This document shows, piece after piece, positions 4,999 through 17,723 of a stretch of DNA of 17,723 nt (position 1 is its first letter; each line of letters starts with the position of its first letter). The stretch is taken from assembly GCA_005877655.1 (NCBI GenBank), contig VBOC01000155.1, positions 1 to 17,723 of the forward strand, given 5' to 3'. Made by a program: the position numbers and the translations under genes. The notes beneath the pieces were generated by a model. It searched no databases, was not told the origin of the DNA, and saw only the letters and a program-made list of their open reading frames with translations. The stretch comes from Ignavibacteria bacterium. Its GTDB lineage: Bacteria > Bacteroidota > Ignavibacteria > UBA10030 > SZUA-254.

Positions 4999-5057
4999 AA
5001 TTGTCCCCCCTATCATGTCGGCATGAGTATCCCATAAGAGCCAGAAAGGATCCTCCA

Positions 5058-6077
5058 GTGAGTCCAGCGCAGTTTTCCGCCCATGACATCATCAATCTTC
5101 TCGTCCGCAGAAAAAAACTGATGAAGGTTTCGTTTTCCGTCGTCTTTCTCCTCAGCACGCTGTGCGCGTTTATCCTGCCGCGGAAATACGAATCGTCCAT
5201 CACGATCCTTGTGCAGCGCGACGAAACCCTTAATCCGCTCGTGAGCTATGAGATGGCTGTCTCGATGGCTTCCGAAGACCGGCTGAGGACGTTCAACGAG
5301 ATCATTTACAGCCGCCCCAGCATCGAGGCTCTCATTGACAGCATCGGCCTGAGACGGTCGATCGGCTCAACGCGGCAGCAGGAGGATTTAATAAAAGAAC
5401 TGCGCAAGAATATTAAGACAGACCGGAAGGGCGACTCCTTCTCGATCACGTATGTCGATGTGGATCCCGTCCGGGCGCAATTAGCCGTTTCCGCCGTAGA
5501 GAGCTACTTCGTCAAGACGGAGCTTCAGGTCGAGCACCAGCGGGACGAACTCACCGTGGAATTCTTCGAAAAGAAGCTGGATGACTTGCGTCAGAAATTC
5601 GAAGAGAATCAGAAACAGATGGTCTCGCTCCTGCGTCAGCGAATTCAGGAACAGCCCACGGAGAATCGCGGACTGTACACGCAGGTTGAGAATGCGGACA
5701 AACAGATCGGCGACATCGATGCGAGGATAAAGACGTATCAGCGCGAACTGGGCGTTCTGCGTTCATTTCCGCAATCACTTGAGAGCGCCAGGGGCAGGCA
5801 GGCACTCGACGAATTGCAGCGAGCGGACCTGCCGTTATCGGGCGATCTCCACACGGTGCTCGCCAAACGGGATGAACTCCTCCAGCGCTATACCTCTCAA
5901 TATCCTGGACCGCATGAGGAAGGTGCTCGAAACCGAGATTTCGAAGCAGCAATCGGATCTGTTCTCCCTCCAGCAAAAGAGGGGTCAATCGATCAACGAC
6001 CTCAAGCAATCCTCCGTAACCCAGCGTGTCGATCAGGACAAGGAGGCCGACTACGGCATTTACCAGAAACTCTATGA
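5058..6077 (+). CDS. Wzz/GumC-like chain-length determinant, 5' fragment of a frameshifted gene
   Basis: I chose the GTG at 5058 because AAAGGA lies 7 nt upstream; the protein then starts MSPAQFSAHDIINLLVRRKK. One membrane helix follows at residues 20-40 (LMKVSFSVVFLLSTLCAFIL), then a Wzz-type periplasmic domain (KYESSITILVQRDE) and long charged helices that should form coiled coils (from about 5560 onward). Sequence sense is lost after LLQRYTSQYP at about 5906. The remainder of this frame to the stop at 6077 is out of frame, while the true continuation (DRMRKVLETEI) lies in the +1 frame. Family members keep one or two residues between YP and LDRM, so a small deletion (about 2 nt missing) fits slightly better than a one-base insertion. 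The protein would span the inner membrane and set polymer length with the Wza-like channel and the ATPase encoded next. Confidence 0.85.
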   Translation: MSPAQFSAHDIINLLVRRKKLMKVSFSVVFLLSTLCAFILPRKYESSITILVQRDETLNPLVSYEMAVSMASEDRLRTFNEIIYSRPSIEALIDSIGLRRSIGSTRQQEDLIKELRKNIKTDRKGDSFSITYVDVDPVRAQLAVSAVESYFVKTELQVEHQRDELTVEFFEKKLDDLRQKFEENQKQMVSLLRQRIQEQPTENRGLYTQVENADKQIGDIDARIKTYQRELGVLRSFPQSLESARGRQALDELQRADLPLSGDLHTVLAKRDELLQRYTSQYPGPHEEGARNRDFEAAIGSVLPPAKEGSIDQRPQAILRNPACRSGQGGRLRHLPETL

Positions 6078-6354
6078 CGAAATGAAGGTGAAGCTTGAGC
6101 AGGCCCGCACGGCCCGCGACCTCGGCAAGCGGGCGGCCAATCAGTTCGTCGTCATTGATCCCGCACAGGTGCCGGCCGAAGCGACAAAGCCGAACCGGAC
6201 GCTTCTGATCGCGGGGGGATTCGGTCTCGGACTCTTCATGGGCCTGCTCGCCGCGGTGGGCGCGGAGCTTATGGATACCCGGGTGCGATCGCCCCTGGAT
6301 GTCGAAGTGTACGGAAAGCCGATCATCGCGTTCATCCCCGAGAACCTGCAATAG
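5905..6354 (+). CDS. Wzz/GumC-like chain-length determinant, 3' fragment
   Basis: This frame continues the protein begun at 5058: LDRMRKVLETEISKQQSDLF, then long coiled-coil helices with QRVDQDKEADYGIYQKLYDE, a conserved Pro-rich stretch (DPAQVPAEATKPNRT) and the second membrane helix LLIAGGFGLGLFMGLLAAVG. The C-terminus, TRVRSPLDVEVYGKPIIAFI, is the usual cytoplasmic tail that contacts the BY-kinase in this family. Rejoined, the gene would encode about 432 residues, normal for GumC-like proteins that lack a fused kinase. An ATG at 5914 exists but has no obvious Shine-Dalgarno, so separate translation is unlikely. The fragment ends 26 nt before the ATPase start. Confidence 0.8.
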   Translation: MDRMRKVLETEISKQQSDLFSLQQKRGQSINDLKQSSVTQRVDQDKEADYGIYQKLYDEMKVKLEQARTARDLGKRAANQFVVIDPAQVPAEATKPNRTLLIAGGFGLGLFMGLLAAVGAELMDTRVRSPLDVEVYGKPIIAFIPENLQ

Positions 6355-7175: not shown

Positions 7176-7346
7176 ATGATCTCACTCGGGGGAACCATTT
7201 CGCTTTGCATCATGGCAATGCTGATCGGGAAACGGCGCCCGGGTCCGATGACGTGGGTTGATTACATCATCGTCGCGACCATCGCGCTCGCGCAGGCTGC
7301 CGTTGTGGTGTACGATTTGTTTACCCTGGAGCTCCCGACCATATGA
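7176..7346 (+). CDS. Small two-helix membrane protein, translationally coupled to wzy
   Basis: A 56-codon ORF starts at ATG 7176, 12 nt after the ATPase gene, and stops at TGA 7344-7346. That stop overlaps the wzy-like ATG (7343) as ATGA. The protein has a first hydrophobic segment (ISLGGTISLCIMAMLIG), a short basic loop (KRRPGPMTWVD) and a second hydrophobic segment (YIIVATIALAQAAVVVYDLF), so it is predicted to be a hairpin in the inner membrane. I do not recognise the family. Its Shine-Dalgarno (GAAGAG, about 8 nt away) is weak. The stop/start overlap and the lack of stops in a well-formed amphipathic pattern argue that it is real. It may be an accessory subunit of the polymerase or of the Wzz/ATPase complex (inference). 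Confidence 0.65.
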   Translation: MISLGGTISLCIMAMLIGKRRPGPMTWVDYIIVATIALAQAAVVVYDLFTLELPTI

Positions 7347-8923
7347 GCCGTTCGGGCAACAGCACACTCGTGTTCGAAACGGGCACCCTGTCGGGATCCG
7401 GCCTCGGCGAGGCGTCCATGACATTGACGCTCGCCAGCCAGCGCGGACTGGTGCTCGGGTTCGCGGTGATGGGCTCGATTGTCCTATCGGCAATCATCAT
7501 CCTGACCTACGGAAACCTGGCCGCAGCCTATTCCTTCCTCGGCGCCTTCGCGGTCGCCCTTATCAGTTTTTACCGGCTTGACGTCGGACTGGACATGCTT
7601 GTCGGCCTCGTGCTCTTCTTCGATGAGTTTGATATTCCAGGATTTTATGCCTGGACGCTCAGTGCCGGCTACTTCGCAAACCTCAAGGAGTCATCGTATC
7701 TGATGGGTTCGGAATGGGCGGTGATGAATCCGTTTGAACTCCACCTCTTTCTCCTGTTCTTCATCTGGCTGCTCGTGGTTTGCCTGAGGCGGAATGTCAG
7801 GTTCACGCCGGTCACGCTCTGGCCGTCACTGGCCGTGATGCTGCTCTGGATGGTCGTGTCGCTCGCACTCGGATTGCAGCGGGGAGGCGATTTTCTCCCA
7901 GCTCTCTGGGAGATTCGGGCCATGTTCTATTTTGCCCTCGTCTTCGCGTTCGTCCCGCAGGTCATCGAGTCGAAGGCCCAGATCCGGACGCTCCTCTGGG
8001 TCATGATTGCGGCGATCTCGATCAAGGCTTTTCAGGCGATCGCGCGATATATCCTGGGAGGGTTTACGACACAGGGATATCCCACGCTGACGAATCATGA
8101 GGATCCCGTTTTTATGACGACGCTGGTCATCCTTCTCCTGGCGTTCCTTCTGTTCAGGTCAGGGGGAAGCCAGAAGGCCGCGCTCCTTGCGCTCCTGGGG
8201 CCGCTTCTTCTGGGGTTCTTTCTCAGACAGAGCCGCGCGGCCTACGCATCGGGAGCCGCATCGCTGGCGGTATTCTTCGTGCTGCTGTCGAAAGAAGAAC
8301 GGCGCCGGCTGCTGAAGAACTCGGCTCCGGCCATCCTCCTTTTCTCGCTCTATTGCGCCGTCATGTGGAACAGCGAAAGCCGGTGGGCGATGCCGGTCAA
8401 GCTTGTCAAGTCCGGGTTTTCCAACGATCGGGAAACGGCCGGAGAACGGTTCTATTCCAACCTCTACCGGGAGCATGAGAAATATGATCTGGCGATCACG
8501 GTCAGAAATGCTCCCACGATCGGGATCGGATTCGGAAAACAGTACGATCAGCCGATCAAGCTGGTCCCCATCCCGTTCACGCTCCGGGATTACATCCCCC
8601 ATAATCAGATCCTCTGGCTGATCGTGAAGATGGGGGGAGTGGGGTTTTTTCTGTTCTGGCTGTTTTTCGACGGCATCGTCTACCGGGGCGCATCGATGGT
8701 TTCCCGGCTGCAGTACCCGTATCTGAAGGCGGTTTGCGTGATGGCGGTGGCAGCCGTTGTCAACCAGATGGTGACGTCGTATTACGACCTCCAGTTGACG
8801 TACTACCGGAACATGATCTATCTGGCCGCCCTCCTCGGACTGCTGCCGGCGATCCGGAACCTCGATCCCGGCCTGTCCGGGAATCCCGACGCCGAGAGGG
8901 CGGATGAAGGAGAGGAGATATAG
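7343..8923 (+). CDS. wzy: Wzy-type polysaccharide polymerase / O-antigen ligase family membrane protein
   Basis: 526 residues, highly hydrophobic, with about ten or more predicted membrane helices. The Wzy_C-type signature is present: a short LRQSRAAYASG motif at the end of a helix (294-304), then a large periplasmic loop (about 345-425) with SNLYREHEKYDLAITV, the PTIGIGFGKQ turn (391-400) and IPHNQILWLIVKMGGVGFF (418-436). In this family the conserved Arg and the P-H-N motif contribute to handling lipid-linked glycan in the periplasm. WaaL ligases and Wzy polymerases share these features. Polymerase is preferred because Wzx, Wzz and Wza-like genes surround it and no lipid A-core genes are seen. 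The start overlaps the small membrane protein by ATGA; the next gene begins 2 nt after the stop. No frame break is seen. Confidence 0.85.
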   Translation: MSRSGNSTLVFETGTLSGSGLGEASMTLTLASQRGLVLGFAVMGSIVLSAIIILTYGNLAAAYSFLGAFAVALISFYRLDVGLDMLVGLVLFFDEFDIPGFYAWTLSAGYFANLKESSYLMGSEWAVMNPFELHLFLLFFIWLLVVCLRRNVRFTPVTLWPSLAVMLLWMVVSLALGLQRGGDFLPALWEIRAMFYFALVFAFVPQVIESKAQIRTLLWVMIAAISIKAFQAIARYILGGFTTQGYPTLTNHEDPVFMTTLVILLLAFLLFRSGGSQKAALLALLGPLLLGFFLRQSRAAYASGAASLAVFFVLLSKEERRRLLKNSAPAILLFSLYCAVMWNSESRWAMPVKLVKSGFSNDRETAGERFYSNLYREHEKYDLAITVRNAPTIGIGFGKQYDQPIKLVPIPFTLRDYIPHNQILWLIVKMGGVGFFLFWLFFDGIVYRGASMVSRLQYPYLKAVCVMAVAAVVNQMVTSYYDLQLTYYRNMIYLAALLGLLPAIRNLDPGLSGNPDAERADEGEEI

Positions 8924-8925
8924 CC

Positions 8926-9732
8926 ATGAACCTCAGAACGCCTCAGCCTCGATCGATCTTCCTCCTGGGCACCCGGGTCGACAACATCGACGAATTCACC
9001 GCGCTTCGCATGACGATAGGCTTCGCCGCGCATCGCGACGGCCTGCCCGCGCGAACAGTCTGTTTTACGAATGTTCACACCATCTGTGAGGCGAGGCGCG
9101 ACCGCTCATTGATGCATTGCGTTAATCTCGCGGATCTGGTGCTGCCCGACGGGAGCGGATTGAAAATCGCCGGCCGGATTTTTGGCACCCCCATCCGCGA
9201 AAACCTCAATGGAACCGATTTTACTCCAAAAGTTCTCGATGCCGCACGGCAGAATGGCCTGAGCGTTTATCTTCTCGGTGCGCAGCTGGGAAGGGTGGTC
9301 TCGTGCCGTGCAAATCTCCTGAGGCAATACCCGAATTTGAGGATCGTGGGACTTCATCACGGCTATTTCACTCCGGAGGATGAACAGGACGTCATCCGGG
9401 ACATCAATGCCAAACAGCCGGATATTCTGCTTGTCGCGCTCGGCACCCCGGTGCAGGAAAAATGGATTTCAAGAAATGCAAGAAGGCTGAACGTCGGAGT
9501 CTGCCTCGCCGTGGGGGGGCTCTTCGACTTTCTCTCCGGCACAATTGTACGCGCCCCGGCCTGGATGCGGCGCGCGGGCATTGAATGGATCTTCCGTTTT
9601 CTCCAGGAACCGCGGCTGAAATGGAAACGGGTGCTTCTCGAAATCCCGATGTTCCTCGCCCTGGTGATTGCGAAACGGATCGTACCGCGGAAGCTACGGA
9701 TGACCCATGATCGGAGGGTAGCGCTGCGATGA
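8926..9732 (+). CDS. WecG/TagA/CpsF-family glycosyltransferase (GT26)
   Basis: 268 residues, starting at ATG 8926 with AGGAG 8 nt upstream. Family signatures run in order: CFTNVHT (46-52), VLPDGSGLKIAGRIFG (72-87) with the likely catalytic Asp75, GTDFTPKVL (96-104), VYLLGAQ (114-120), LLVALGTPVQEKWI (168-181) and CLAVGGLFDFLSG (193-205). The C-terminal appendage RAPAWMRRAGIEWIFRFLQE is also typical; in TagA this tail binds the membrane. These enzymes add the second sugar (for example ManNAc or ManNAcA) to undecaprenyl-PP-HexNAc, which fits the WecA-like initiator in this window. The sugar donor cannot be read from the sequence. No nucleotide-sugar epimerase or dehydrogenase for it is in the window. 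The stop overlaps the next gene's ATG (ATGA at 9729-9732). Confidence 0.88.
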   Translation: MNLRTPQPRSIFLLGTRVDNIDEFTALRMTIGFAAHRDGLPARTVCFTNVHTICEARRDRSLMHCVNLADLVLPDGSGLKIAGRIFGTPIRENLNGTDFTPKVLDAARQNGLSVYLLGAQLGRVVSCRANLLRQYPNLRIVGLHHGYFTPEDEQDVIRDINAKQPDILLVALGTPVQEKWISRNARRLNVGVCLAVGGLFDFLSGTIVRAPAWMRRAGIEWIFRFLQEPRLKWKRVLLEIPMFLALVIAKRIVPRKLRMTHDRRVALR

Positions 9733-10415
9733 AAATCGATGTCGCCCGATCGGTCACGAAGAACGACGCCGTCATGATGGGCTCCCAGGTCGTGACGTGG
9801 CTCTACACGTTCATCCTCATGCTCTTCCTGCCACGTTATCTCGGCAGCGAGGATTACGGAAGGCTGTACCTGGCAATCTCCGTCGGCATGATCATCCAGA
9901 TCGTGATCGAGTTTGGCGGCAGCTACTACATCCCCAAGGAGGTTTCGAGGGATCAGGCAAGCGCCCCCTCGCTGGTGATGAATTTCATTCTCATTCGAAT
10001 CTTCCTCTGGGTTGTCTCAATTCTGCTCCTGGCCGGGTTCGCGAATTTGGCCAGCTACCCGGGGGAAGTGAAGGGGCTCCTTTTCATCATCGGCACCGCG
10101 AAGCTCTGGGAAGGCATCGCGGGAGTGGTGCGCAATTGCCTCCAGGGATTTGAAAAAATGGAATACACGTCGGCCGCCGCAATCGTCGAGCGGACGTTTC
10201 TCACCGCGGTTGGCGTTGTTGCGCTTTTTTTGGGGGCGGGAGCAGCGGTGATTGCGGCGATCATGGCCGTGAGTACGCTCCTGAATTTTCTGACCGTCGC
10301 GAAATTCTTTCGCCGGTTCGTGCCCCGGCTTCCCCGCTTCGATCCTTCGGCTGCTTTCGCTCATGGCGTCGGAATCGGAGGTGGGGTGGTACGGGGCCGC
10401 GTACCGTTTTTTTGA
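9729..10415 (+). CDS. wzx: Wzx-type polysaccharide flippase, 5' fragment of a broken gene
   Basis: The start at ATG 9729 overlaps the previous stop. This half has six membrane segments typical of the MATE/MVF flippase superfamily (TM1 around VTWLYTFILMLFLPRYLG, followed by SEDYGRLYLAISVGMI). It moves lipid-linked repeat units across the inner membrane. Family-like sequence ends at RFDPSAAFA, near 10361. The remaining codons to the stop at 10415 are out of frame. The seventh membrane segment, usually of the form F-x-R-I-D-T-x-M-L-S, is missing between this fragment and the 3' part, so this is a deletion plus frame change rather than a simple indel. Both frames read sensibly through GCTTTCGCT at 10353-10361. 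Confidence 0.85.
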   Translation: MKIDVARSVTKNDAVMMGSQVVTWLYTFILMLFLPRYLGSEDYGRLYLAISVGMIIQIVIEFGGSYYIPKEVSRDQASAPSLVMNFILIRIFLWVVSILLLAGFANLASYPGEVKGLLFIIGTAKLWEGIAGVVRNCLQGFEKMEYTSAAAIVERTFLTAVGVVALFLGAGAAVIAAIMAVSTLLNFLTVAKFFRRFVPRLPRFDPSAAFAHGVGIGGGVVRGRVPFF

Positions 10416-11118
10416 CGTCCTCATGTTTCTGCCGAGCATCATCACGACCGCCCTTTTTCCCGTCCTGTCGCGGCTGTGGATCCAGGACGAAAAGATGCTC
10501 GGCAGCACCACGAACCGCTGCCTCGACTTTGTGATCTTTGCCGCCGTGCCCGCCGGCGTTTGCACGTTCGCCTACGCGGAACAGATCATCCAGTTCTTCT
10601 TCGGATTGAAAGAATACGGGCCGTCGGTTATCATTCTTCGTATTTTCTCGTTCGGCGTCCTCATGCTCTACGTCGATATGATTCTGGGGACGATGTTGTT
10701 CGCCTCCGACAGGCAGCGGCAGTGGACGGTGGTGGCGTTCATTGCCCTGGTGCTGAATCCTCTCCTTAATTATCTGCTGATTCCGATCTCCGAATCGCGG
10801 ATGGGCAATGCGGGCATCGAGGTTGTTGTCATGATCGCGGCGCTGAGGATCATGCCGGCGCACGTCCTGGGAACGTCGTGGATTGCCTCGACCGCCCGCG
10901 CCGCCGGCGCCGGGATGCTGATGGCGATTGCCATTATAATGGAAAACCGGGCGTCAATGCCGTGGCTCCCGGCCGGCATCATCGCGATCGGCCTCTACAT
11001 CGCCGCTTTGCTGGCGATGCGCGCCTTTCAGCCCGCCGAGCTTGCATTCATCCAGGGCTTTTTCTCCAGCCGTAATCTGAAAACCATTTTCCTTACACAA
11101 CGTGAGGTGAGCGCATGA
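10351..11118 (+). CDS. wzx: Wzx-type polysaccharide flippase, 3' fragment
   Basis: This is the continuation of the flippase in the +1 frame. It begins LLSLMASESEVGWYGAAYRF, the segment that normally follows the D-T-x-M-L-S helix, and continues with the C-terminal membrane helices (LMFLPSIITTALFPVLSRLW, then IILRIFSFGVLMLYVDMILG and AGAGMLMAIAIIM). ATG 10363 is available, but no clear Shine-Dalgarno precedes it. A second, in-frame gap is suspected at about 10817-10820. There GNAGI runs straight into EVVVMIAAL, whereas family members carry about ten more residues (G-x-A-x-A-T-type helix). The fragment ends with TGA overlapping the next ATG (11115-11118). With the missing pieces the protein would be about 490 residues, the usual Wzx length. 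Confidence 0.8.
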   Translation: MLSLMASESEVGWYGAAYRFFDVLMFLPSIITTALFPVLSRLWIQDEKMLGSTTNRCLDFVIFAAVPAGVCTFAYAEQIIQFFFGLKEYGPSVIILRIFSFGVLMLYVDMILGTMLFASDRQRQWTVVAFIALVLNPLLNYLLIPISESRMGNAGIEVVVMIAALRIMPAHVLGTSWIASTARAAGAGMLMAIAIIMENRASMPWLPAGIIAIGLYIAALLAMRAFQPAELAFIQGFFSSRNLKTIFLTQREVSA

Positions 11119-11825
11119 GAATTCTGCATCTGTTTCCTTATTCGCCCATTCCTCCAACGTTCGGGGGAGCCCTGCGCAACTACCACCTGCTGAAGCACAT
11201 GGCGGCGAAGCACGATGTGAGCGTGCTGTTATACGGGACATCGGAAGACGCAGACTCGATTGCCGAGGGATTTCATCTGCCCGGCGAGCGGATCCGGATA
11301 GTGCGGAGAACCTGGATCCGGAACCACTGGCGGCTTGGACAGATGTATGCGATGTCAACCCCCCACAGTTTTTTCCATCTCATGATCGGCCGCTCGGGCA
11401 GGATGCAGGAAGCGATCGACGAGGTCCTCGCCGCCGGGGAGTTCGACATCGTGCAGACCGAATTCACGCCGATGGGATGTTACAAGCTGAGGACCGCGGC
11501 GGCGAAAATCCTGGACGCGCACAATGTCGAGTACCATAACCACCTCCGGATGTCTGTGCACGCGAACTCGCTGATCAGGCGCCTCTGGTACCGGCGTGAG
11601 ACGCACATGCTGAAAGGAGAAGAGACGCGGGCCTGCCGGCAGCATGATGCGGTCTTTGCGACTTCCGCGCGCGACCTGGAACTGCTGGAGAAGCTCTCGC
11701 CGGGGGTTCCGAAATTCGTTATCCCCAACGGGGTCGATGCGTCGTACTTCAGGCCGAACGGCCAGGCTCCGGCATCCCCCTCGCTGAGATCTTTCCACTC
11801 ATTAATAGGAAGGTTCCCGGCGTAA
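11115..11825 (+). CDS. GT4-family glycosyltransferase, 5' fragment of a broken gene
   Basis: The ATG at 11115 is preceded by GAGGTGA and overlaps the flippase stop. The N-terminal GT-B donor-independent half is present: MRILHLFPYSPIPPTFGG with the Gly loop, KILDAHNVEYHN, and ATSARDLELL leading to FVIPNGVDASYFRP, the linker that enters the C-terminal domain. Sequence sense ends at GQAPASPSL (about 11785). The stretch normally found next (a strand such as L-V-F-T-G, then Y-x-P-N-x-D) is missing, and the reading frame changes. The enzyme would add a hexose-type residue from a nucleotide sugar to the lipid-linked repeat unit at the cytoplasmic membrane face. Donor and linkage cannot be read. Confidence 0.82.
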   Translation: MRILHLFPYSPIPPTFGGALRNYHLLKHMAAKHDVSVLLYGTSEDADSIAEGFHLPGERIRIVRRTWIRNHWRLGQMYAMSTPHSFFHLMIGRSGRMQEAIDEVLAAGEFDIVQTEFTPMGCYKLRTAAAKILDAHNVEYHNHLRMSVHANSLIRRLWYRRETHMLKGEETRACRQHDAVFATSARDLELLEKLSPGVPKFVIPNGVDASYFRPNGQAPASPSLRSFHSLIGRFPA

Positions 11826-12307
11826 CAATCACGATCGTCGGAAACCGCCCGCCCCGGGAATTATTAAGGAGGGCCTCGGACCAAGTCATCATCACCGGCT
11901 ACGTGGACGACGTTCGCCCGTTCGTCGAGCGCGCCAGCGTCTATGTCGCACCGCTGCGTATTGGAAGCGGAACACGATTGAAAATTCTGGAAGCCTTATC
12001 GATGAAGAAACCGGTCGTCACGACCAGCATCGGGTGCGAGGGGCTGGACATCCTTGACGGGGAATCGGCTCTCGTTGCCGATGAGCCTGAAGCGTTTGCT
12101 TCGCGCGTGATCGAGCTGCTTCAAAATGGAGGATTGCGCCGGAAGCTGATGCGAGGCGGGTATGAGCTGGTGCGGGAGAAGTACGATTGGCGCATCGTGC
12201 ACCAACGGCTGGATCAAGCCTATTGCGAGGTGTTGCGGAGCGCGCGCGTCCCTGCCGTCGCGGACCGGGAACGTCTCGAGTACCCTGAGCCGGTTTACGC
12301 AACGTAA
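11780..12307 (+). CDS. GT4-family glycosyltransferase, 3' fragment
   Basis: The frame continues as LAEIFPLINRKVPGVTITIV, a G-N-R-P-P loop, VIITGYVDDVRPFVERASVY, and the nucleotide-sugar site APLRIGSGTRLKILEALSM with the catalytic-type Glu of the E-x7-E region (K-I-L-E-A-L). It ends EKYDWRIVHQRLDQAY. This is the C-terminal Rossmann domain of a GT4 enzyme. The bases CTCGCTG at 11780-11786 read as PSL in the upstream frame and as LAE in this one. That fits a deletion between two short direct repeats with loss of roughly 20-25 codons. ATG 11903 exists but would leave out the start of the domain. The gene ends 31 nt before the deacetylase start. Confidence 0.82.
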   Translation, partial: LAEIFPLINRKVPGVTITIVGNRPPRELLRRASDQVIITGYVDDVRPFVERASVYVAPLRIGSGTRLKILEALSMKKPVVTTSIGCEGLDILDGESALVADEPEAFASRVIELLQNGGLRRKLMRGGYELVREKYDWRIVHQRLDQAYCEVLRSARVPAVADRERLEYPEPVYAT

Positions 12308-12338
12308 GTCTCTCACGACCATGAAAGGAGAATTTTGC

Positions 12339-13220
12339 GTGGCAACAGACGGAAGCGTGGTGCAGATGGATCACCGCGCCCGCAACTCGATGAACGTGCT
12401 GATGTACCACCGGATCGTCGACGACGAAAGCCGTGCACAACGGCACTGGACCTGCGTCCACGTGGACAATCTCGCTCAACAGCTCCACATGCTGGATCGC
12501 TGCGGTTTTACCACCATCACCTTCAACGATTACCAGCTATCCCTTTCCGTTGAGGTGAATTTGCCGCGAAAACCGGTCGTCATTAGTTTCGACGACGGAT
12601 ATCTTGACACCTACCGGCTGGCGTTTCCCGTCTTGCGGGAACTTGGAATGAAAGCCGTCGTCTTCGTCGTCGCCGGCAAGAATGTAAAGTCCAATATCTG
12701 GGACCGGCATATCGGTGTTCCTCCGGCCCCGCTTCTTGAGCCCGGACATCTGGTGCAGATGTCGCGGGAGGGAATCGAAATCGGTTCTCACTCCCTGACG
12801 CATCCGCGCCTCATCGATCTGCCGGACGATGCTGCTTGGGAAGAGTTATCCCACTCGAAGCTTCTACTCGAGATGCTCCTTGACTCCCCGATTAACAGCA
12901 TCTCGTATCCCTACGGGATCGTGGATACCAGAATCAAGAACATGGCCCGGGAAGCCGGCTATACGATCGGGTGCGGCGTCTCGAGCGGTCCCGCACACTT
13001 CGGGGATGACCTGATGGAAGTACGGAGGACTGCCATTAAGAATTCGACCGGACCGCTGGGGTTCGGATTGCGGCTTCTGCCGCTCTTCCAACGATATTCT
13101 TTTCTCCGCTGGAAAACTTCGCAGGCCTTATCGAGCCGGGCGACTCCCGCACGCAGGAGGAATCTGCCCGATGTCGCGATTTCGACCGTCCCGGGGAATG
13201 GGTTCGAACATGAGAACTGA
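12339..13220 (+). CDS. NodB-type polysaccharide deacetylase, probably cytoplasmic
   Basis: The GTG at 12339 is chosen because AAAGGAG (12324-12330) lies 8 nt upstream; an in-frame ATG at 12321 has no such site. 293 residues. Carbohydrate esterase 4 motifs are visible: motif 1 VVISFDDGY (80-88; D85 and D86), motif 2 EIGSHSLTHPRL (147-158; His151 and His155 as metal ligands) and motif 3 SISYPYG (187-193). The N-terminal block NVLMYHRIVDD is also typical. These enzymes remove N- or O-acetyl groups from sugars in a metal-dependent reaction. No signal peptide or membrane segment is visible, so it would act on cytoplasmic or lipid-linked intermediates before flipping, unlike secreted PgaB/IcaB types. 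Its last 50 nt overlap the following acyltransferase gene. Confidence 0.87.
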   Translation: MATDGSVVQMDHRARNSMNVLMYHRIVDDESRAQRHWTCVHVDNLAQQLHMLDRCGFTTITFNDYQLSLSVEVNLPRKPVVISFDDGYLDTYRLAFPVLRELGMKAVVFVVAGKNVKSNIWDRHIGVPPAPLLEPGHLVQMSREGIEIGSHSLTHPRLIDLPDDAAWEELSHSKLLLEMLLDSPINSISYPYGIVDTRIKNMAREAGYTIGCGVSSGPAHFGDDLMEVRRTAIKNSTGPLGFGLRLLPLFQRYSFLRWKTSQALSSRATPARRRNLPDVAISTVPGNGFEHEN

Positions 13221-14088
13221 CAGGGCGCAAATGGAAGTCCCGGAATATCCGGACATCGCGGTTCCAGCGCGCGATCCGGGCCACGTCACATGCGAGATTG
13301 TGCGATCGGAGAATGAGTTCGCCTCGTTGTTTCAGTCATGGGAGCGGCTTACCACGCTCTCGAAGGCTCGCATCTACCAAACATTCGACTGGCAATGGAC
13401 ATGGTGGAGCCATTTCGGGTCGGGGCTCGGCCTGCACATCATCGTTCTCCGGCACAACGGAGAGATCATCGGCCTTGCGCCGTTTTGCGTGGAAACAGAC
13501 TCTGTCTGGGGCCTTCCGTATCGCCGGCGCCTGAAGATGGTGGGCTGCGATGTTCGGATTAAAGAGCCCTCGGGGATCACGATCACGTACGATATATCGG
13601 ATTATCTCGACATCATCATCCATCCGGGACATACCGGCCCGGCTGTGGAGTCGATCGCGCAATATTTGCGCGATCACGTTTCTGAATATGACGCGATTGA
13701 GCTTACAAACGTGCCTGACGGGAGCTTAATCATGAAGTCACTTGTTCCGCGGCTCAGGGAAGGAGGCTTCAGGATTTTGGCCTCGCGCGCGGACGTGTGT
13801 CCCCGTCTGAAAGTGCCATCTTCCATGGAGGCGTACCTTCAATCGCTGGGGAACAACGTTCGCCGCCGGCTTCTCCAGGCAAAGGCGGCCGCGAACGGGG
13901 GCGGATTGTTCACAATTGAATGCGCCGAGGGTCCGGCCGACTGGCCGGTTCGGTTCGGGAGCTCGCCGCACTGCACCAGCAGAGGTGGAACCGGATCGGT
14001 TATCCGGGGCTTTTTTTTGAAGGGCGGTTCGGGCGCTTTATCCACGACGTTGTCGGGCGCATGCAGGAACGGGGCCGGGTATGGCTGA
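13171..14088 (+). CDS. FemAB/CelD-like GNAT acyltransferase, 5' fragment of a frameshifted gene
   Basis: The ATG at 13171 has a perfect AGGAGG (13155-13160), 10 nt upstream, inside the deacetylase gene. The N-terminal GNAT half typical of BioF2-like/CelD (Acetyltransf_6) proteins is present: CEIVRSENEFASLFQSWERL, then IYQTFDWQWTWWSHFG, IIVLRHNGEIIGLAPF and VRRRLLQAKAAA. The last block corresponds to the R-x-L-R-x-x-x-K-type substrate region. Sequence sense ends at ECAEGPADW, near 13945. The continuation (SVRELAALHQQRWN) is in another frame and is reached if one base is missing there. Family members move acyl or aminoacyl groups to cell-wall or exopolysaccharide sugars and often accompany exosortase-associated polysaccharide genes. 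The N-terminus is clearly related to the partial gene at 17469. Confidence 0.82.
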   Translation: MSRFRPSRGMGSNMRTDRAQMEVPEYPDIAVPARDPGHVTCEIVRSENEFASLFQSWERLTTLSKARIYQTFDWQWTWWSHFGSGLGLHIIVLRHNGEIIGLAPFCVETDSVWGLPYRRRLKMVGCDVRIKEPSGITITYDISDYLDIIIHPGHTGPAVESIAQYLRDHVSEYDAIELTNVPDGSLIMKSLVPRLREGGFRILASRADVCPRLKVPSSMEAYLQSLGNNVRRRLLQAKAAANGGGLFTIECAEGPADWPVRFGSSPHCTSRGGTGSVIRGFFLKGGSGALSTTLSGACRNGAGYG

Positions 14089-14582
14089 AAATCGCTACAT
14101 CGGGCGGAAAGACGGTAGCGGTGCGCCTGGGATTCTGCTTTAACGATGCGTTCTATGACTACCTTTCAGGTTTCGACGATCAATCGGCCGCCGCGAAGCG
14201 AAGGCCGGGTATCGCCCTGCTTCTTTCAATGATCGAAGATGCGAGAGCTTTGAATGCGGAAACCGTTGACTTTCTTCGCGGAGAAGAGGCGTACAAGTTT
14301 GAGATGAGTTCCGGCGCAGCGGATAACTGGAGGGTCACGGCGCTTTCGCCCTCTCCGGCGCATGCCTCCTGGCTGCGGGCGATTCTGTCGTTTGTTGACG
14401 GGGGAATCCGTTGGTGGTGGAAAGAACGGCTCCTCATGCGCGTCCAATCTCAGCAACACAGGTTCCCCTCTTCGGCCATTAACTATTTGCGCTTTCGAGC
14501 TGCGTCGGCTGCGCGGAAAATCAAGCGTGCAGGGGGCCGGGGTTCAGGATATCAATCGGAGAAACTGAATGTTCATGCCTGA
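13941..14582 (+). CDS. FemAB/CelD-like GNAT acyltransferase, 3' fragment
   Basis: This second GNAT half includes VRELAALHQQRWNRIGYPGL, then GRVWLKIATSGGKTVAVRLG (the beta-strand/acyl-CoA region) and FYDYLSGFDDQSAAAKRRPG (acyl-donor loop). LLLSMIEDARALNAETVDFL and the FLRGEEAYKF motif close the fold. A basic C-terminal tail follows. ATG 13920 lies upstream in this frame but has no good Shine-Dalgarno and would translate nonsense before the junction. Rejoined, the gene is about 470 codons. The stop at 14580-14582 overlaps the next gene's ATG (14569) by 14 nt. Confidence 0.78.
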   Translation: MAGSVRELAALHQQRWNRIGYPGLFFEGRFGRFIHDVVGRMQERGRVWLKIATSGGKTVAVRLGFCFNDAFYDYLSGFDDQSAAAKRRPGIALLLSMIEDARALNAETVDFLRGEEAYKFEMSSGAADNWRVTALSPSPAHASWLRAILSFVDGGIRWWWKERLLMRVQSQQHRFPSSAINYLRFRAASAARKIKRAGGRGSGYQSEKLNVHA

Positions 14583-14832
14583 CGAGGTTCACGCTCATCT
14601 GAACCAAGTGCTCGATCCGCCGGCATCGACAGAAGGCAGGATCCGGCGGGAGAACCAGCGCCCCTGGTCGAGAAATCTGCTGCACTCATTCCGGGACCTC
14701 CTGGATCACCTGCGGGACCTCGCCGTGGCATCGATTCCTGCGCATGACGACCGGAAAATCATGCTTGACGCATACTTAACCGGCTGCGCCCTCTCCTGCA
14801 CCGGGGATTATTGCGCGTTGAGCTCAGAATGA
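14569..14832 (+). CDS. N-terminal fragment of the broken PRTase-like/HAD protein
   Basis: The ATG at 14569 is preceded by GGAGAA (8 nt away) and overlaps the GNAT stop by 14 nt. The fragment reads MFMPDEVHAHLNQVLDPPAS and ends with a likely helical stretch, SFRDLLDHLRDLAVA, then DDRKIMLDAYLTG. After ALSCTGDYCALSSE the frame stops. The continuation RTAAREAVNPVRN is in another frame, so one or more bases are probably missing around 14800-14830. The region has no domain I recognise. It probably forms the helical N-terminus of the large protein that follows. Confidence 0.6.
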   Translation: MFMPDEVHAHLNQVLDPPASTEGRIRRENQRPWSRNLLHSFRDLLDHLRDLAVASIPAHDDRKIMLDAYLTGCALSCTGDYCALSSE

Positions 14833-16124
14833 GGACTGCGGCCCGCGAGGCCGTGAATCCCGTGAGGAACCCCCGCTCCCCGAAGAACTGGATTCAGATC
14901 CTACAGAAGGGGATTCGGTCGCAGGCTTTGCTGATTCCATCGAGAGCAGCCGATGCTCTGGCGGCTTGCGCTGTCGAATTGCGGATTAAGCTGCGCGAGT
15001 CCACTTTGGTGCGGGCCTCCGAAATTTTGAAGACAGCGATCGAAAGGATGGCTTCTCAGCTCGTCTCGACCGAACAACGCACAGAGGTTGGGGTGCAATC
15101 GGATGCGCTATTACAAGAGGCCGCACAAGCGGTTCGGGGTGGAACCTACCCGGATGCGCTCCTCGATCGGGTCTTGAAAATTCCGGCATGTTTCAAGGAT
15201 TTTGACTGCCACCCCGATGACTGCGGCCTGTTCGCAAACAAGATTGCGGAAATCTTTGAAGACCGGCATGAGTCATTCACCGTCCTTGGAATCAGGACTT
15301 CCGGCTCGTATCTGGCTCCCCTCTGTGCGGCCTTCCTGCGGAGGGAGGGATTCAGAGATGTCACGATCGCGACCATCCGGCCCGATGTGAGTCTCCTTTC
15401 ATGGGAGAAGAGCCGGCTGATCAGGAGATCGAAGGCGGGAACGATTCTCATCATTGACGACCCGCCCTTCACCGGCGAGGGGCTTCTCTCATCCATCAGA
15501 ATGCTGGAACGGATGGGAATAGAGACGAACAGGATTGTTGCTCTTGTCTTTGAAGATCCGGAGGCGCCATTCTTCAGGGTAAATGAAATGACGGGCGGTT
15601 CAACCTGGAAGGAGCTAAGCTCGCGCATCAGGACGATTCTGTTGCCGAAGCGTGAGTGGCGGATCAGGAGAGTCACCGGCGTGCTGGATATGGGCGGCGC
15701 GGAGATGAGAATCCTGAAACTGCACGGCTATTCTGTTCATGAAGCCCCCGCGGGAACGGCTGATCCGGCGTCGGCTGCGGGCAGCCAGCGTTTTCGCGTC
15801 CGGAAGGCGCGGCGTCATGAGAATCTGAAGCTTGACAGCACGCTCGAAACTCCGGGAGGGGCCGCCTCTTCCTCGTTTATTGCCAGGGGAACCGGGTTCG
15901 GCTGGTTCGAAGATCATGCGCTGGAAATCGCACGCCGGATGTCGGATTTCGCTCCGCCGGTTTCGCGGCTTGAAGAGGGCCTGGAGAGTTCGTCCGGCAT
16001 GCAGCGAGGTATGTTGCCGAACGATCCCGGGCTCTCCCCCTCGACAACGAGGGGAATCGCGACCTGGAAGACCGCAAGACAGGCTGGCACCTGCTGGCGC
16101 GCACGTTCGGGCGGAGTTATCTGA
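14811..16124 (+). CDS. Phosphoribosyltransferase-like domain, middle fragment of the broken multidomain protein
   Basis: The open frame begins with a TTG at 14811, but the true N-terminus is probably at 14569. Meaningful sequence runs from about 14826 to 15985. A helical region is followed by PACFKDFDCHPDDCGLF (15183-15233), with three Cys and one His close together. The PRTase-like core is FTVLGIRTSGSYLAPLCAAF, in place of the usual loop with G-G near a lysine or arginine, and TILIIDDPPFTGEGLLSSIR (15441-15500). The latter resembles the PRPP-binding motif (hydrophobic-DD-x-x-x-TG) with PPF in the middle. A C-terminal stretch follows: GTGFGWFEDHALEIARRMSD, then FAPPV, possibly the start of a kinase-like region. 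The frame loses sense after EEGLE (about 15986). The enzyme may attach or release a ribosyl phosphate, or may use the fold only for binding; I cannot tell. Confidence 0.6.
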   Translation: MRVELRMRTAAREAVNPVRNPRSPKNWIQILQKGIRSQALLIPSRAADALAACAVELRIKLRESTLVRASEILKTAIERMASQLVSTEQRTEVGVQSDALLQEAAQAVRGGTYPDALLDRVLKIPACFKDFDCHPDDCGLFANKIAEIFEDRHESFTVLGIRTSGSYLAPLCAAFLRREGFRDVTIATIRPDVSLLSWEKSRLIRRSKAGTILIIDDPPFTGEGLLSSIRMLERMGIETNRIVALVFEDPEAPFFRVNEMTGGSTWKELSSRIRTILLPKREWRIRRVTGVLDMGGAEMRILKLHGYSVHEAPAGTADPASAAGSQRFRVRKARRHENLKLDSTLETPGGAASSSFIARGTGFGWFEDHALEIARRMSDFAPPVSRLEEGLESSSGMQRGMLPNDPGLSPSTTRGIATWKTARQAGTCWRARSGGVI

Positions 16125-17482
16125 TGCTGCGCTCTTTTTCCTACTATCAGCTGCGTAAACGGCTGTCGAGAATATGCCTCGGCGCGCCCCGGGCCGTGAT
16201 CGACGGCCGGATGGGACCCGCCGAGTGGATCATGCCGGCCGGCGGAGGGAACCCGCTCAAGCTGGACTTTGACGAACACGCATTCGACAGGAGCGATCTC
16301 TCGGTTTTCGATCCGGTCATCGATCTGGCGGGCTTCTCGGTCGAGCACCGGTTGCCGGACAATCTGGAAAAAATCTTGATGATCGAATATATCAGCCGGA
16401 GCGGCGACACCGGAGCATGGGAACGACTCCCGGCATGCAAGATGATCGTGTGTCTTTCCGCGCAGTCGGAGCTCGAATCACAGGCCTTCGAAGGCGATGC
16501 GGATCCGGTTAAGGTTACGCTCGACTTATTGGAACTGGAACGGGTCTTGTCAAAAACGGCAAACGGGTTTCTCTCGGATGCGTTCCGCCTTCAGGAGGCC
16601 CGCTGGGAGTCGGACGAAATGGTGGCCATCGACGTCGACGGCGTGCTCGAGGACAGCATCCTGGGTTTCAGCGCCATGTCGCCGACAGCCGTGAAGGCGG
16701 TTCGTACGCTGGCGCGACACGGATTTCAGGTTGTGCTCGCCACCGGCCGAAGCTTGCCGGACGTGATCGAGCGATCACGGATCCTGCGCGTCCCGGGCGG
16801 CATCGCAGAGTACGGATCTGTGGTCTGGGACCGGGGGCGCGAGGCGACGGCGACTCTCGTCACCCCGCGGGAAATGGAACAACTTCGGAAACTCCGCGAG
16901 ATTCTCGCCGATCAGGACGGGATCTCCATCGACCCCGGTCACGAATATTCGGTCCGGGTTTTTCAGTCGGCAAAGGGCTCCCGCCGGCGGGTTGCGGCTT
17001 TCTGGCTTGAACAGATCCTGCGGCGGTGGAAGCTCGATGAAGTGCGCGTCATCCAGGGAAACTCAGTCACGGACGTGGTGGGAAGATCCGTGAACAAGGG
17101 CGCCGGACTCCTGTACCTGAGGCGGAGGTTCAATGCGCGCGAGGTTCATGCGATCGGGGACACTCACGAAGATGCGCCGCTCTTCCGCGCCGCGGATCAT
17201 TCCTACTCGCCGGCAAACGCGGCACCCGGCCTTGTGAGGGGGATGAGGAACGGCGATCTCTTCGTTGCGAAAGGAAAGACGCAGCGCGGGCTTTTCCAGA
17301 TCGCGATGAGGATCGCCCACGGAAGAAGTCGCCGTTGTCCGCTCTGCTCAGACGCCGATCAATGGAGCGAACCGGTTTCGATCCTTGTCGAGGCGCTGAG
17401 TCTGAGAGACCGGAGCCGTTTTCAGAAAATATCCGATCTGATCGGCCACGACATGCTCAAGAATTTCTATGCCAGCCTTTAA
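15974..17482 (+). CDS. Kinase-like region plus HAD-superfamily phosphatase, 3' fragment of the broken multidomain protein
   Basis: The frame opens after a TGA at 15971-15973 and makes sense from about 15990: FVRHAARYVAERS, ERNRDLEDRKTGWHLLARTF, then VIDGRMGPAEWI and NPLKLDFDEHAFD, VFDPVIDLAGFS. This order (D-G-R-M, then K-x-D-F-D-x-H, then D-x-x-x-D-L-A) looks like the active-site end of an aminoglycoside/choline-kinase-type phosphotransferase; this is tentative. The HAD domain follows: motif I VAIDVDGVLED (16625-16657; catalytic DVD), motif II VVLATGRS, the C2-type cap (GGIAEYGSVVWD), motif III Lys in SVNKGAG and motif IV HAIGDTHEDAPLF (17147-17185). This is type HAD-IIB (Cof/sugar-phosphatase-like). 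A C-terminal CPLC motif and helix close the protein. ATG 16124 is a possible internal start. It ends overlapping the next gene's ATG at 17469 by 14 nt. Confidence 0.75.
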   Translation, partial: RGPGEFVRHAARYVAERSRALPLDNEGNRDLEDRKTGWHLLARTFGRSYLMLRSFSYYQLRKRLSRICLGAPRAVIDGRMGPAEWIMPAGGGNPLKLDFDEHAFDRSDLSVFDPVIDLAGFSVEHRLPDNLEKILMIEYISRSGDTGAWERLPACKMIVCLSAQSELESQAFEGDADPVKVTLDLLELERVLSKTANGFLSDAFRLQEARWESDEMVAIDVDGVLEDSILGFSAMSPTAVKAVRTLARHGFQVVLATGRSLPDVIERSRILRVPGGIAEYGSVVWDRGREATATLVTPREMEQLRKLREILADQDGISIDPGHEYSVRVFQSAKGSRRRVAAFWLEQILRRWKLDEVRVIQGNSVTDVVGRSVNKGAGLLYLRRRFNAREVHAIGDTHEDAPLFRAADHSYSPANAAPGLVRGMRNGDLFVAKGKTQRGLFQIAMRIAHGRSRRCPLCSDADQWSEPVSILVEALSLRDRSRFQKISDLIGHDMLKNFYASL

Positions 17483-17723
17483 CAATCATCCGGGCGGACA
17501 GCCGATTGTGAACCGCGCGATCCGCGCGCCGGGTAAGGGCGAGGCGCGTTCACTCAAGGGACTTTGCCAGCTCCACGTTGTGCGCTCCGAGAGGGAGCTG
17601 GATGCCCTGGAGGAGCGGTGGAATGAGCTCATACGTTCTTCGGATGTTTCCGCTTTTCAGACGTTTGAGTGGCTGAGGACCTGGTGGAAGTACTTCGGCG
17701 CTCATCGAAGGCTCCACTCACTC
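17469..17723 (+). CDS. Second FemAB/CelD-like GNAT acyltransferase (C-terminus outside window)
   Basis: The ATG at 17469 lies inside the end of the HAD gene. 85 codons are visible, with no stop before the edge. After a basic N-terminus (about residues 1-30) it reads LHVVRSERELDALEERWNEL, then VSAFQTFEWLRTWWKYFGAH. This matches the first GNAT (CEIVRSENEFASLFQSWERL, then IYQTFDWQWTWWSHFG) block by block, so the two genes are paralogs on either side of the PRTase-like/HAD gene. A GTG at 17508 is an alternative start. The acyl-donor region and catalytic core are beyond the right edge, so function is inferred only from the N-terminal signature. Confidence 0.75.
   Translation, partial: MPAFNNHPGGQPIVNRAIRAPGKGEARSLKGLCQLHVVRSERELDALEERWNELIRSSDVSAFQTFEWLRTWWKYFGAHRRLHSL

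Follow-up and report, generated by a model that had tools for sequence, protein, structure and literature searches.

The three-domain gene and its locus

Contig VBOC01000155.1 of an Ignavibacteria bacterium (GenBank assembly GCA_005877655.1) was analyzed over its full 17,723 nucleotides, which we call the window. At 14569-17482 it carries three open reading frame (ORF) pieces that, judged from their translations, are parts of one gene, which would encode a large protein with a phosphoribosyltransferase (PRTase) domain, a kinase-like domain and a phosphatase domain of the HAD (haloacid dehalogenase) type. All three pieces map in order onto a single chain of 969 residues on a Candidatus Rokuibacteriota metagenome-assembled genome contig (L052), where one frame encodes a FemAB-like domain and then the counterpart of the window protein: piece 1 (P0001) aligns with residues 11-53 of this chain (65% identity over 43 amino acids (aa), E 6e-16), piece 2 (P0002) with residues 68-450 (42% over 390 aa) and piece 3 (P0003) with residues 517-968 (56% over 452 aa, E 2e-173). 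Piece 1 alone gave no significant match against 129 more distant or partial relatives. The last ~45 codons of piece 2 are off-frame relative to the relatives, and the frame of piece 3 extends upstream of 16124 to 502 codons from stop to stop. In a tree the window piece, L052 and P0005 cluster together (support 1.0); set B (defined below) as drawn is poorly supported (0.28).

An initial annotation of the window, made from its letters, had read one continuous protein across the breaks, with the order helical domain, PRTase, kinase-like domain and HAD-IIB phosphatase; the L052 alignment bears out the continuity, the order stands, and the motifs that it quoted (IDDPPFTGEG, DGRM, KLDFDEH, DVDGVLED and GDTHEDAP) are present in the translations. 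The objection that it raised against itself, that intact homologues might be separate genes, falls away, as these are single chains; three genomes from the taxonomic order of the window (L080, L081 and L082) have unbroken ORFs of 945, 943 and 968 aa.

Table 1. Features of the window, with strand and basis of assignment.
Feature	Position	Strand	Basis
Fibronectin type III repeats, running off the contig start	1-1107	-	fn3 E 3e-14
Chain-length determinant (Wzz, then GNVR), two frames	5001..6354	+	Pfam
O-antigen ligase/polymerase-like protein (Wzy_C)	7343..8923	+	E 1.2e-9
WecG/TagA/CpsF glycosyltransferase	8926..9732	+	E 1.1e-60
Polysaccharide flippase, two frames	9729..11118	+	family match
Group 1/4 glycosyltransferase, two frames	11115..12307	+	family match
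NodB-type polysaccharide deacetylase, first codons uncertain	12162..13220	+	Polysacc_deac_1 E 2e-24
FemAB-like (Acetyltransf_6) gene, two frames, directly upstream, overlapping the start of piece 1	13171..14582	+	second piece E 4.6e-22
Piece 1, N-terminal helical domain	14569..14832	+	translation (87 aa), match to L052 N-terminus
Piece 2, remaining helical domain, PRTase domain, start of kinase-like N-lobe	14811..16124	+	437 aa, frames compared with relatives
Predicted type I PRTase-fold segment	15093..15662	+	PPi-loop-like GIRTSGSYLAPL; PRPP motif IIDDPPFTGEG; acidic pair 15456-15461
Piece 3, kinase-like C-lobe and HAD-IIB phosphatase	16124..17482	+	452 aa
Predicted kinase-like catalytic region: D27 (VIDGRM), W and K/D (LKLDF), DPVIDLAG	16202..16336	+	residue map; fold from structure of relative P0032
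Predicted HAD-IIB phosphatase: nucleophile D170 (DVDGVLED), ATGR, K325, GDTHEDAP	16619..17260	+	Hydrolase_3, HAD-SF-IIB, invariant alignment columns
Start of second FemAB-like gene, ending with the contig, overlapping the end of piece 3	17469..17723	+	likeness to L052:4851-6227 (Acetyltransf_6)

The FemAB match of L080 falls at 13183-13947 of the window, and Pfam gave no match on the 85-aa stub of the second FemAB-like gene. No exosortase turned up among the family calls of the window, which included no dedicated exosortase test; the ORF at 7343-8923 is the Wzy_C match.

Predicted domains and their conservation

Conservation was counted in two sets of relatives, set A (114 sequences from the first of two protein searches) and set B (120 from the second), with residues numbered after the relative P0032, whose structure was predicted. 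Both the fold of a type I PRTase and the PRPP (phosphoribosyl pyrophosphate) motif with its vicinal acidic pair are found. D282 is present in 114/114 sequences of set A and 119/120 of set B, D283 in 114/114 and 118/120, and G288 in all. Pfam Pribosyltran matches piece 2 at E 2.9e-5 (23.9 bits, under its cut-off of 26.3) and 23 of 33 segments (E up to 0.01). In the P0032 model the PRTase strands 249-254 and 277-281 are connected via a single helix (262-273), and the core has no large insertion. Foldseek on the PRTase segment was weak and mixed, with four matches at E up to 0.001, two to HGPRT and two to periplasmic binding proteins; no CriT or gPRT chain (see below) is among the matches listed, an absence that carries no evidential weight. 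The PRTase call of the initial annotation agrees with the fold found by structure prediction, and the modeled assignment of the window's own segment as a type I PRTase is supported. Fold and motif are shared with the type I nucleotide PRTases (PyrR, HGPRT, UPRT, APRT and OPRT), although the family PRTase sits, unlike these, within a chain of ~950 aa in glycan loci.

For the second domain, an APH-type (aminoglycoside phosphotransferase) kinase fold is supported by the prediction for P0032, where the domain was folded as part of the longer chain. The kinase call, tentative in the initial annotation, holds up as a predicted fold, though Pfam APH matched 0/28 kinase segments; a sequence match in the Protein Data Bank was sought and rejected (best 4r77, E 1.6). 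The domain also differs from APH and choline-kinase-like phosphotransferases in that its catalytic loop lacks a conserved Asn at the place where APH enzymes have one past the catalytic Asp (the D+5 position is mostly L or P) and the metal Asp is not universal. D532, W540, D569 and D573 are invariant in both sets, and K552 is present in 112/114 of set A and 120/120 of set B. In the N-lobe, K405 is K in 21/114 of set A (66 have E) vs 120/120 of set B, and D554 is found in 63/114 vs 120/120; because these counts differ, the kinase site reads in the alignments as intact in set B and eroded in part of set A. The window protein keeps D532, W540, K552, D554, D569 and D573 and has R at 405; its departures lie in the kinase N-lobe (loop Gly replaced by E, Lys by R), and the other mappable PRTase, kinase-core and HAD residues of pieces 2 and 3 are present.

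The third domain shows the features of a HAD-IIB phosphatase, with a Rossmann core and C2-type cap in the model and the D-x-D, T/S, K and D...D motifs; the fold is supported by the predicted structure of a relative. Pfam Hydrolase_3 matches piece 3 over its cut-off (E 3.8e-12), and the HAD-SF-IIB model scores 41.2 bits vs a cut-off of 41.8. D663 is present in all 234 sequences and D851 also in all, D661 and K818 each in 114/114 of set A and 119/120 of set B, and D847 in 114/114 and 107/120. Unlike stand-alone HAD-IIB sugar phosphatases (Cof/SPP/MPGP), this is the C-terminal domain of a larger chain and stays under the NCBIfam equivalog cut-offs. Near the C-terminus lies a CxxC pair (902 and 905 in P0032; GRSRRCPLC in the window), found in 114/114 of set A and in the window lineage and absent in set B, which is possibly a metal site.

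The family and its genomic setting

At E 0.001 the two protein searches yielded 706 and 459 matches from ~8,000 scored candidates each, with their overlap uncounted. The best 120 matches were listed per search; many relatives are single chains of about 900-980 aa, and 234 of the 241 listed proteins P0012 to P0252 have 850-1450 aa. Among the matches and loci listed, the named sources are Actinomycetota, Chloroflexota, Dormibacterota, Bacteroidota, Candidatus Binatia, Terriglobia and Rokubacteria. When 120 genomes were searched for relatives, 36 had a match at E 0.001; apart from four, these matches are weak and of the HAD type (E no better than 4e-9). The initial annotation had named a housekeeping role as a point that would tell against it; no known one turned up, and the gene is accessory, as only 4/98 genomes of the window's order, its own included, carry it. 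No description of this PRTase/kinase-like/HAD protein family was found in the open-access literature, and this large and widespread three-domain family is apparently uncharacterized.

The surroundings of the gene for the three-domain protein (the target) were counted in 58 loci, with near-duplicates and L080-L082 dropped; counts over 61 loci include L080-L082. As the neighbor queries were drawn from the same loci as those counted, the presence counts are not independent. Simple gene callers give spurious ORFs in high-GC loci, and the Pfam tallies of neighbors cover 320 of 374 selected ORFs (54 unscanned), with the best 25 families listed per tally. Within 10 kb of the target, glycosyltransferase family 2 (GT2) genes occur in 36 of the 58 loci, NodB in 26, GH16 in 19, a flippase in 28, FemAB in 14 and an APH-type gene in 32. 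Taking GT2, NodB, GH16, flippase and FemAB as polysaccharide markers, 43/58 loci have one or more of them (41/52 among loci whose flank is 8 kb or longer), in line with the polysaccharide setting that the initial annotation had assumed. Genes of the flippase-APH and APH clusters adjoin the target: up to 2 kb from it their densities per 100 kb are 15.3 and 12.3, and beyond 4 kb they drop to 0-1.7. FemAB is also close, with 4.4 and 3.7 within 4 kb and 0-0.6 beyond. NodB is ~29x denser near the target (28 matches/897 kb) than genome-wide (178/about 167 Mb in 30 genomes), a comparison in which detection methods differ: the background control covered NodB only, in 30 of the genomes that hold these loci, with a profile instead of tblastn and rounded genome sizes. 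Fusions of the target are seen to GT2 (P0071 and P0123), NodB (P0063), FemAB (P0139 and L052) and, with a match just under the cut-off, a Pro_dh-like domain (P0172).

Of the 61 loci, 31 have an APH-type gene and 27 a flippase no more than 4 kb from the target. In L018 the target adjoins a fusion of a flippase-like protein with an APH-type kinase (12580-15003; APH E 2.1e-15, residues 568-737), and other loci have such neighbors too. The Chloroflexi locus L049 has two target copies, at 9938-12652 and 16848-19673 (-), with ComA, ComB-like (by eye) and LarA-like (Lar_N E 4.6e-35) genes.

In L080-L082 two FemAB genes stand before the target, together with a ComA-like gene (E 2e-38 in L080) and with genes for ATP-grasp and Pro_dh-like proteins; L080 and L082 have the ComA-like phosphosulfolactate synthase with two ATP-grasp ligases, and L081 has one ATP-grasp. 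One of these ATP-grasp proteins has a weak match to ATPgrasp_Ter (E 9.9e-6), whose 25.8 bits are under the cut-off of 29.1. Besides L080-L082, a ComA-like neighbor occurs in L049 and ATP-grasp-like neighbors in L018, L032 and L052, a small number of the scanned loci. In the window's genome, contig C253 has a FemAB C-terminus at its end and then ATP-grasp genes, a FemAB-Pro_dh ORF and GT2; since its end resembles, by eye, the end of the second L052 FemAB gene, C253 may continue the window's contig, from which it is unjoined. On contig C176 lie ComA, a gene for a ComB-like phosphatase and an ORF that joins FemAB to ATP-grasp. Domain fusions in this genome are FemAB-Pro_dh-like at L094:4232-6100 (-) and FemAB-ATP-grasp at L095:3352-6009, and ComA-like with ComB-like genes stand beside ATP-grasp and FemAB in L095 (G000:C176, 1850-6009) and L080 (1906-5449). 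The company of ComA/ComB-like, ATP-grasp and FemAB genes suggests a sulfolactate-type substituent.

Possible functions and alternatives

What could such a three-domain protein do? Tentatively, and short of calling it probable, we favor a cytoplasmic multi-domain enzyme of polysaccharide loci that carries out PRPP-dependent ribosylation of a pathway acceptor and then dephosphorylation. To judge from its fold and conserved motifs, the PRTase would bind PRPP and pass 5-phosphoribose to a molecule that the pathway makes or carries. This acceptor would most likely be a lipid-linked glycan, or else an acyl or amide substituent handled by the neighboring FemAB-like transferases. The HAD-IIB domain of the same chain would strip the 5-phosphate so that a ribosyl group remains. 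The APH-fold domain would phosphorylate the acceptor, or would merely hold it in clades with eroded residues; about half of the scanned loci have a separate APH-type kinase gene nearby.

The gPRT-PRP ribofuranosyltransferases, reportedly described by Kelly et al. in 2022, include enzymes of K. pneumoniae O4/O7, C. jejuni (Cj1432) and H. influenzae (Bcs3, CriT-CrpP). Our favored reading has its closest model in them. In C. jejuni Cj1432 and H. influenzae Bcs3, ribose-5-phosphate is passed from PRPP onto a glycan, and a HAD domain of the same chain then removes the phosphate (PMC12096443, PMC10299916, PMC11127046, PMC11231755). The gPRT-PRP enzymes share with the present family a PRTase-fold and a HAD phosphatase in one chain, polysaccharide loci and sometimes further glycosyltransferase fusions; because the two kinds of domain and the setting are the same, the family may, by analogy, work like them. 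The initial annotation had proposed a phosphorylated, perhaps ribosyl, sugar on the polymer, which the analogy makes plausible (PMC12096443, PMC10299916, PMC11127046), while the vicinal DD, unlike CriT, leaves room for a small-molecule acceptor. The acidic pair of CriT is not a vicinal DD, its D680 lying on loop 1 and its E818 on loop 3, gPRT has a helical bundle of about 80 residues inserted in its catalytic domain, and CrpP, a PRP, has a helical cap inserted past motif I and a DXD conserved at its first Asp only (PMC10299916). The family here has a vicinal DD, a compact PRTase, a HAD-IIB phosphatase and an APH-fold domain in between, unlike gPRT-PRP enzymes, which are described without a kinase-like domain. 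Membership in gPRT was rejected on D282-D283 being vicinal and on the lack of a helical-bundle insertion; membership in PRP was rejected as both Asp of DxD are invariant or nearly so and the fold and cap match HAD-IIB chains.

Several observations weigh against the favored reading. None of the five polysaccharide markers is present in 15/58 loci, 11 of which have 8 kb or more of flank. GT2 and NodB densities are even across 0-10 kb, so these genes are not specifically adjacent to the target. By its motifs the HAD domain is not of the PRP type, and loss of the kinase residues is not clearly associated with a neighboring APH gene (K kept in 2/27 loci with such a gene and 4/19 without). Alphaproteobacterial proteins of 582-586 aa have the PRTase and kinase without HAD (BLASTP E 1e-15 over about 400 residues). 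By analogy, the vicinal DD and the lack of a long helical insertion favor a smaller acceptor, and the vicinal pair, unlike that of CriT, keeps a small-molecule alternative alive.

This alternative, unlikely in our judgment but deserving real weight, is that phosphoribose goes onto a base-like, amide or acid metabolite and that the kinase and HAD domains finish a nucleoside-like compound, exported with the coat or later joined to it. The canonical DD of the PRTase motif fits it, as do the ComA-like, ATP-grasp, Pro_dh-like and FemAB genes beside the L080-L082 targets with their weak ATPgrasp_Ter match, the genes on C253 and C176, and an inositol-phosphate synthase near the alphaproteobacterial relatives in 3/4 loci viewed. 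Ter (tellurite-resistance) operons contain nucleoside-like metabolite modules, which such a pathway would, with equally small likelihood, resemble, as PRTase, HAD and ATP-grasp share a neighborhood in some loci. The Ter-type PRTase families, which we take to be Pfam PRTase_2, PRTase_3 and TRSP, matched neither the window pieces, with E values up to 1 allowed, nor eight partial or full relatives, and the family differs from these modules also in its glycan loci. Against the small-molecule pathway stand, besides, the few scanned loci with ComA- and ATP-grasp-like neighbors and the GT2 and NodB fusions of the target, which point to a glycan role.

Could the kinase be central instead? Here the PRTase-like and APH-like domains would form the core, in which the PRTase binds PRPP or a sugar phosphate, either to sense it or as a substrate site. 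The main reaction would be phosphorylation of a glycan end or an inositol-type sugar, which the phosphatase reverses or trims. We consider this improbable. The alphaproteobacterial relatives speak for it. Hhalign relates them to the family (probability 98.2 over 366 columns), and Pfam assigns them to none of its families at E 0.01. The mapped kinase residues are retained in 4/4, apart from a Gly that is replaced in a single protein, and the PRPP motif has D-E. The four loci viewed have a histidine phosphatase family gene within 3 kb and annotated glycosyltransferases in 4/4. The phosphatase may stand in for HAD or may serve inositol phosphate. K405, D532 and D554 are, moreover, retained throughout set B; in set A, however, K405 and D554 are often lost while the PRTase motif is invariant, and the missing catalytic-loop Asn also argues against a kinase-centered enzyme. 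The two-domain proteins of L098, L099, L100 and L101 are annotated hypothetical and lie on megaplasmids; the relative was found in 90 plasmid records, 66 of them Sinorhizobium.

That the window copy is a decayed pseudogene, functionless in that organism, is quite unlikely and would leave the family untouched. The copy is broken twice, and its hinge segment after EEGL is unlike the relatives. Four more window genes, however, lie in two frames (chain-length determinant, flippase, group 1/4 glycosyltransferase and upstream FemAB; Table 1), and, as the active-site residues are also kept, assembly indels seem likelier than decay, judging from sequence. The rpoB of the same genome, in two pieces on two contigs, was uninformative on assembly quality. 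A scaffold or regulator, in which a PyrR-like PRPP sensor with degenerate enzymes organizes a glycan assembly line, is most improbable, given HAD and PRTase active-site residues nearly invariant across 234 sequences.

Returning to PRPP-dependent decoration, a bolder form of it, which we regard as doubtful, is a separate class independent of gPRT-PRP: an ancestral PRTase-kinase core with an acquired phosphatase, working within modular FemAB/ATP-grasp/Pro_dh-like sets for coat decoration and putting ribosyl or phosphoribosyl groups on secreted polysaccharides across several phyla. The phosphatase would be the fused HAD-IIB or perhaps, in alphaproteobacteria, the neighboring histidine phosphatase. 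Under the same doubt, the partners of the FemAB-like transferases, as neighbors or in fusions, would be ATP-grasp, proline-dehydrogenase-like and PRTase-kinase-HAD proteins, and the ribosyl or phosphoribosyl groups would possibly sit on sulfolactyl-type amide substituents.

If PRPP-dependent ribosylation by this family is true, it would be a second, unrelated bacterial route that uses PRPP to place ribose on coats, and it would account for more than 1,000 matches (706 and 459, overlap uncounted) filed as HAD hydrolases or hypothetical proteins. Its fusions and neighbors name the partner genes, GT2, NodB, FemAB-like, ATP-grasp and ComA, and the two-domain relative on megaplasmids of Sinorhizobium meliloti offers a genetic model in which to test the question. 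The three-enzyme protein may thus mark a new way of decorating the polysaccharide coat of the cell.

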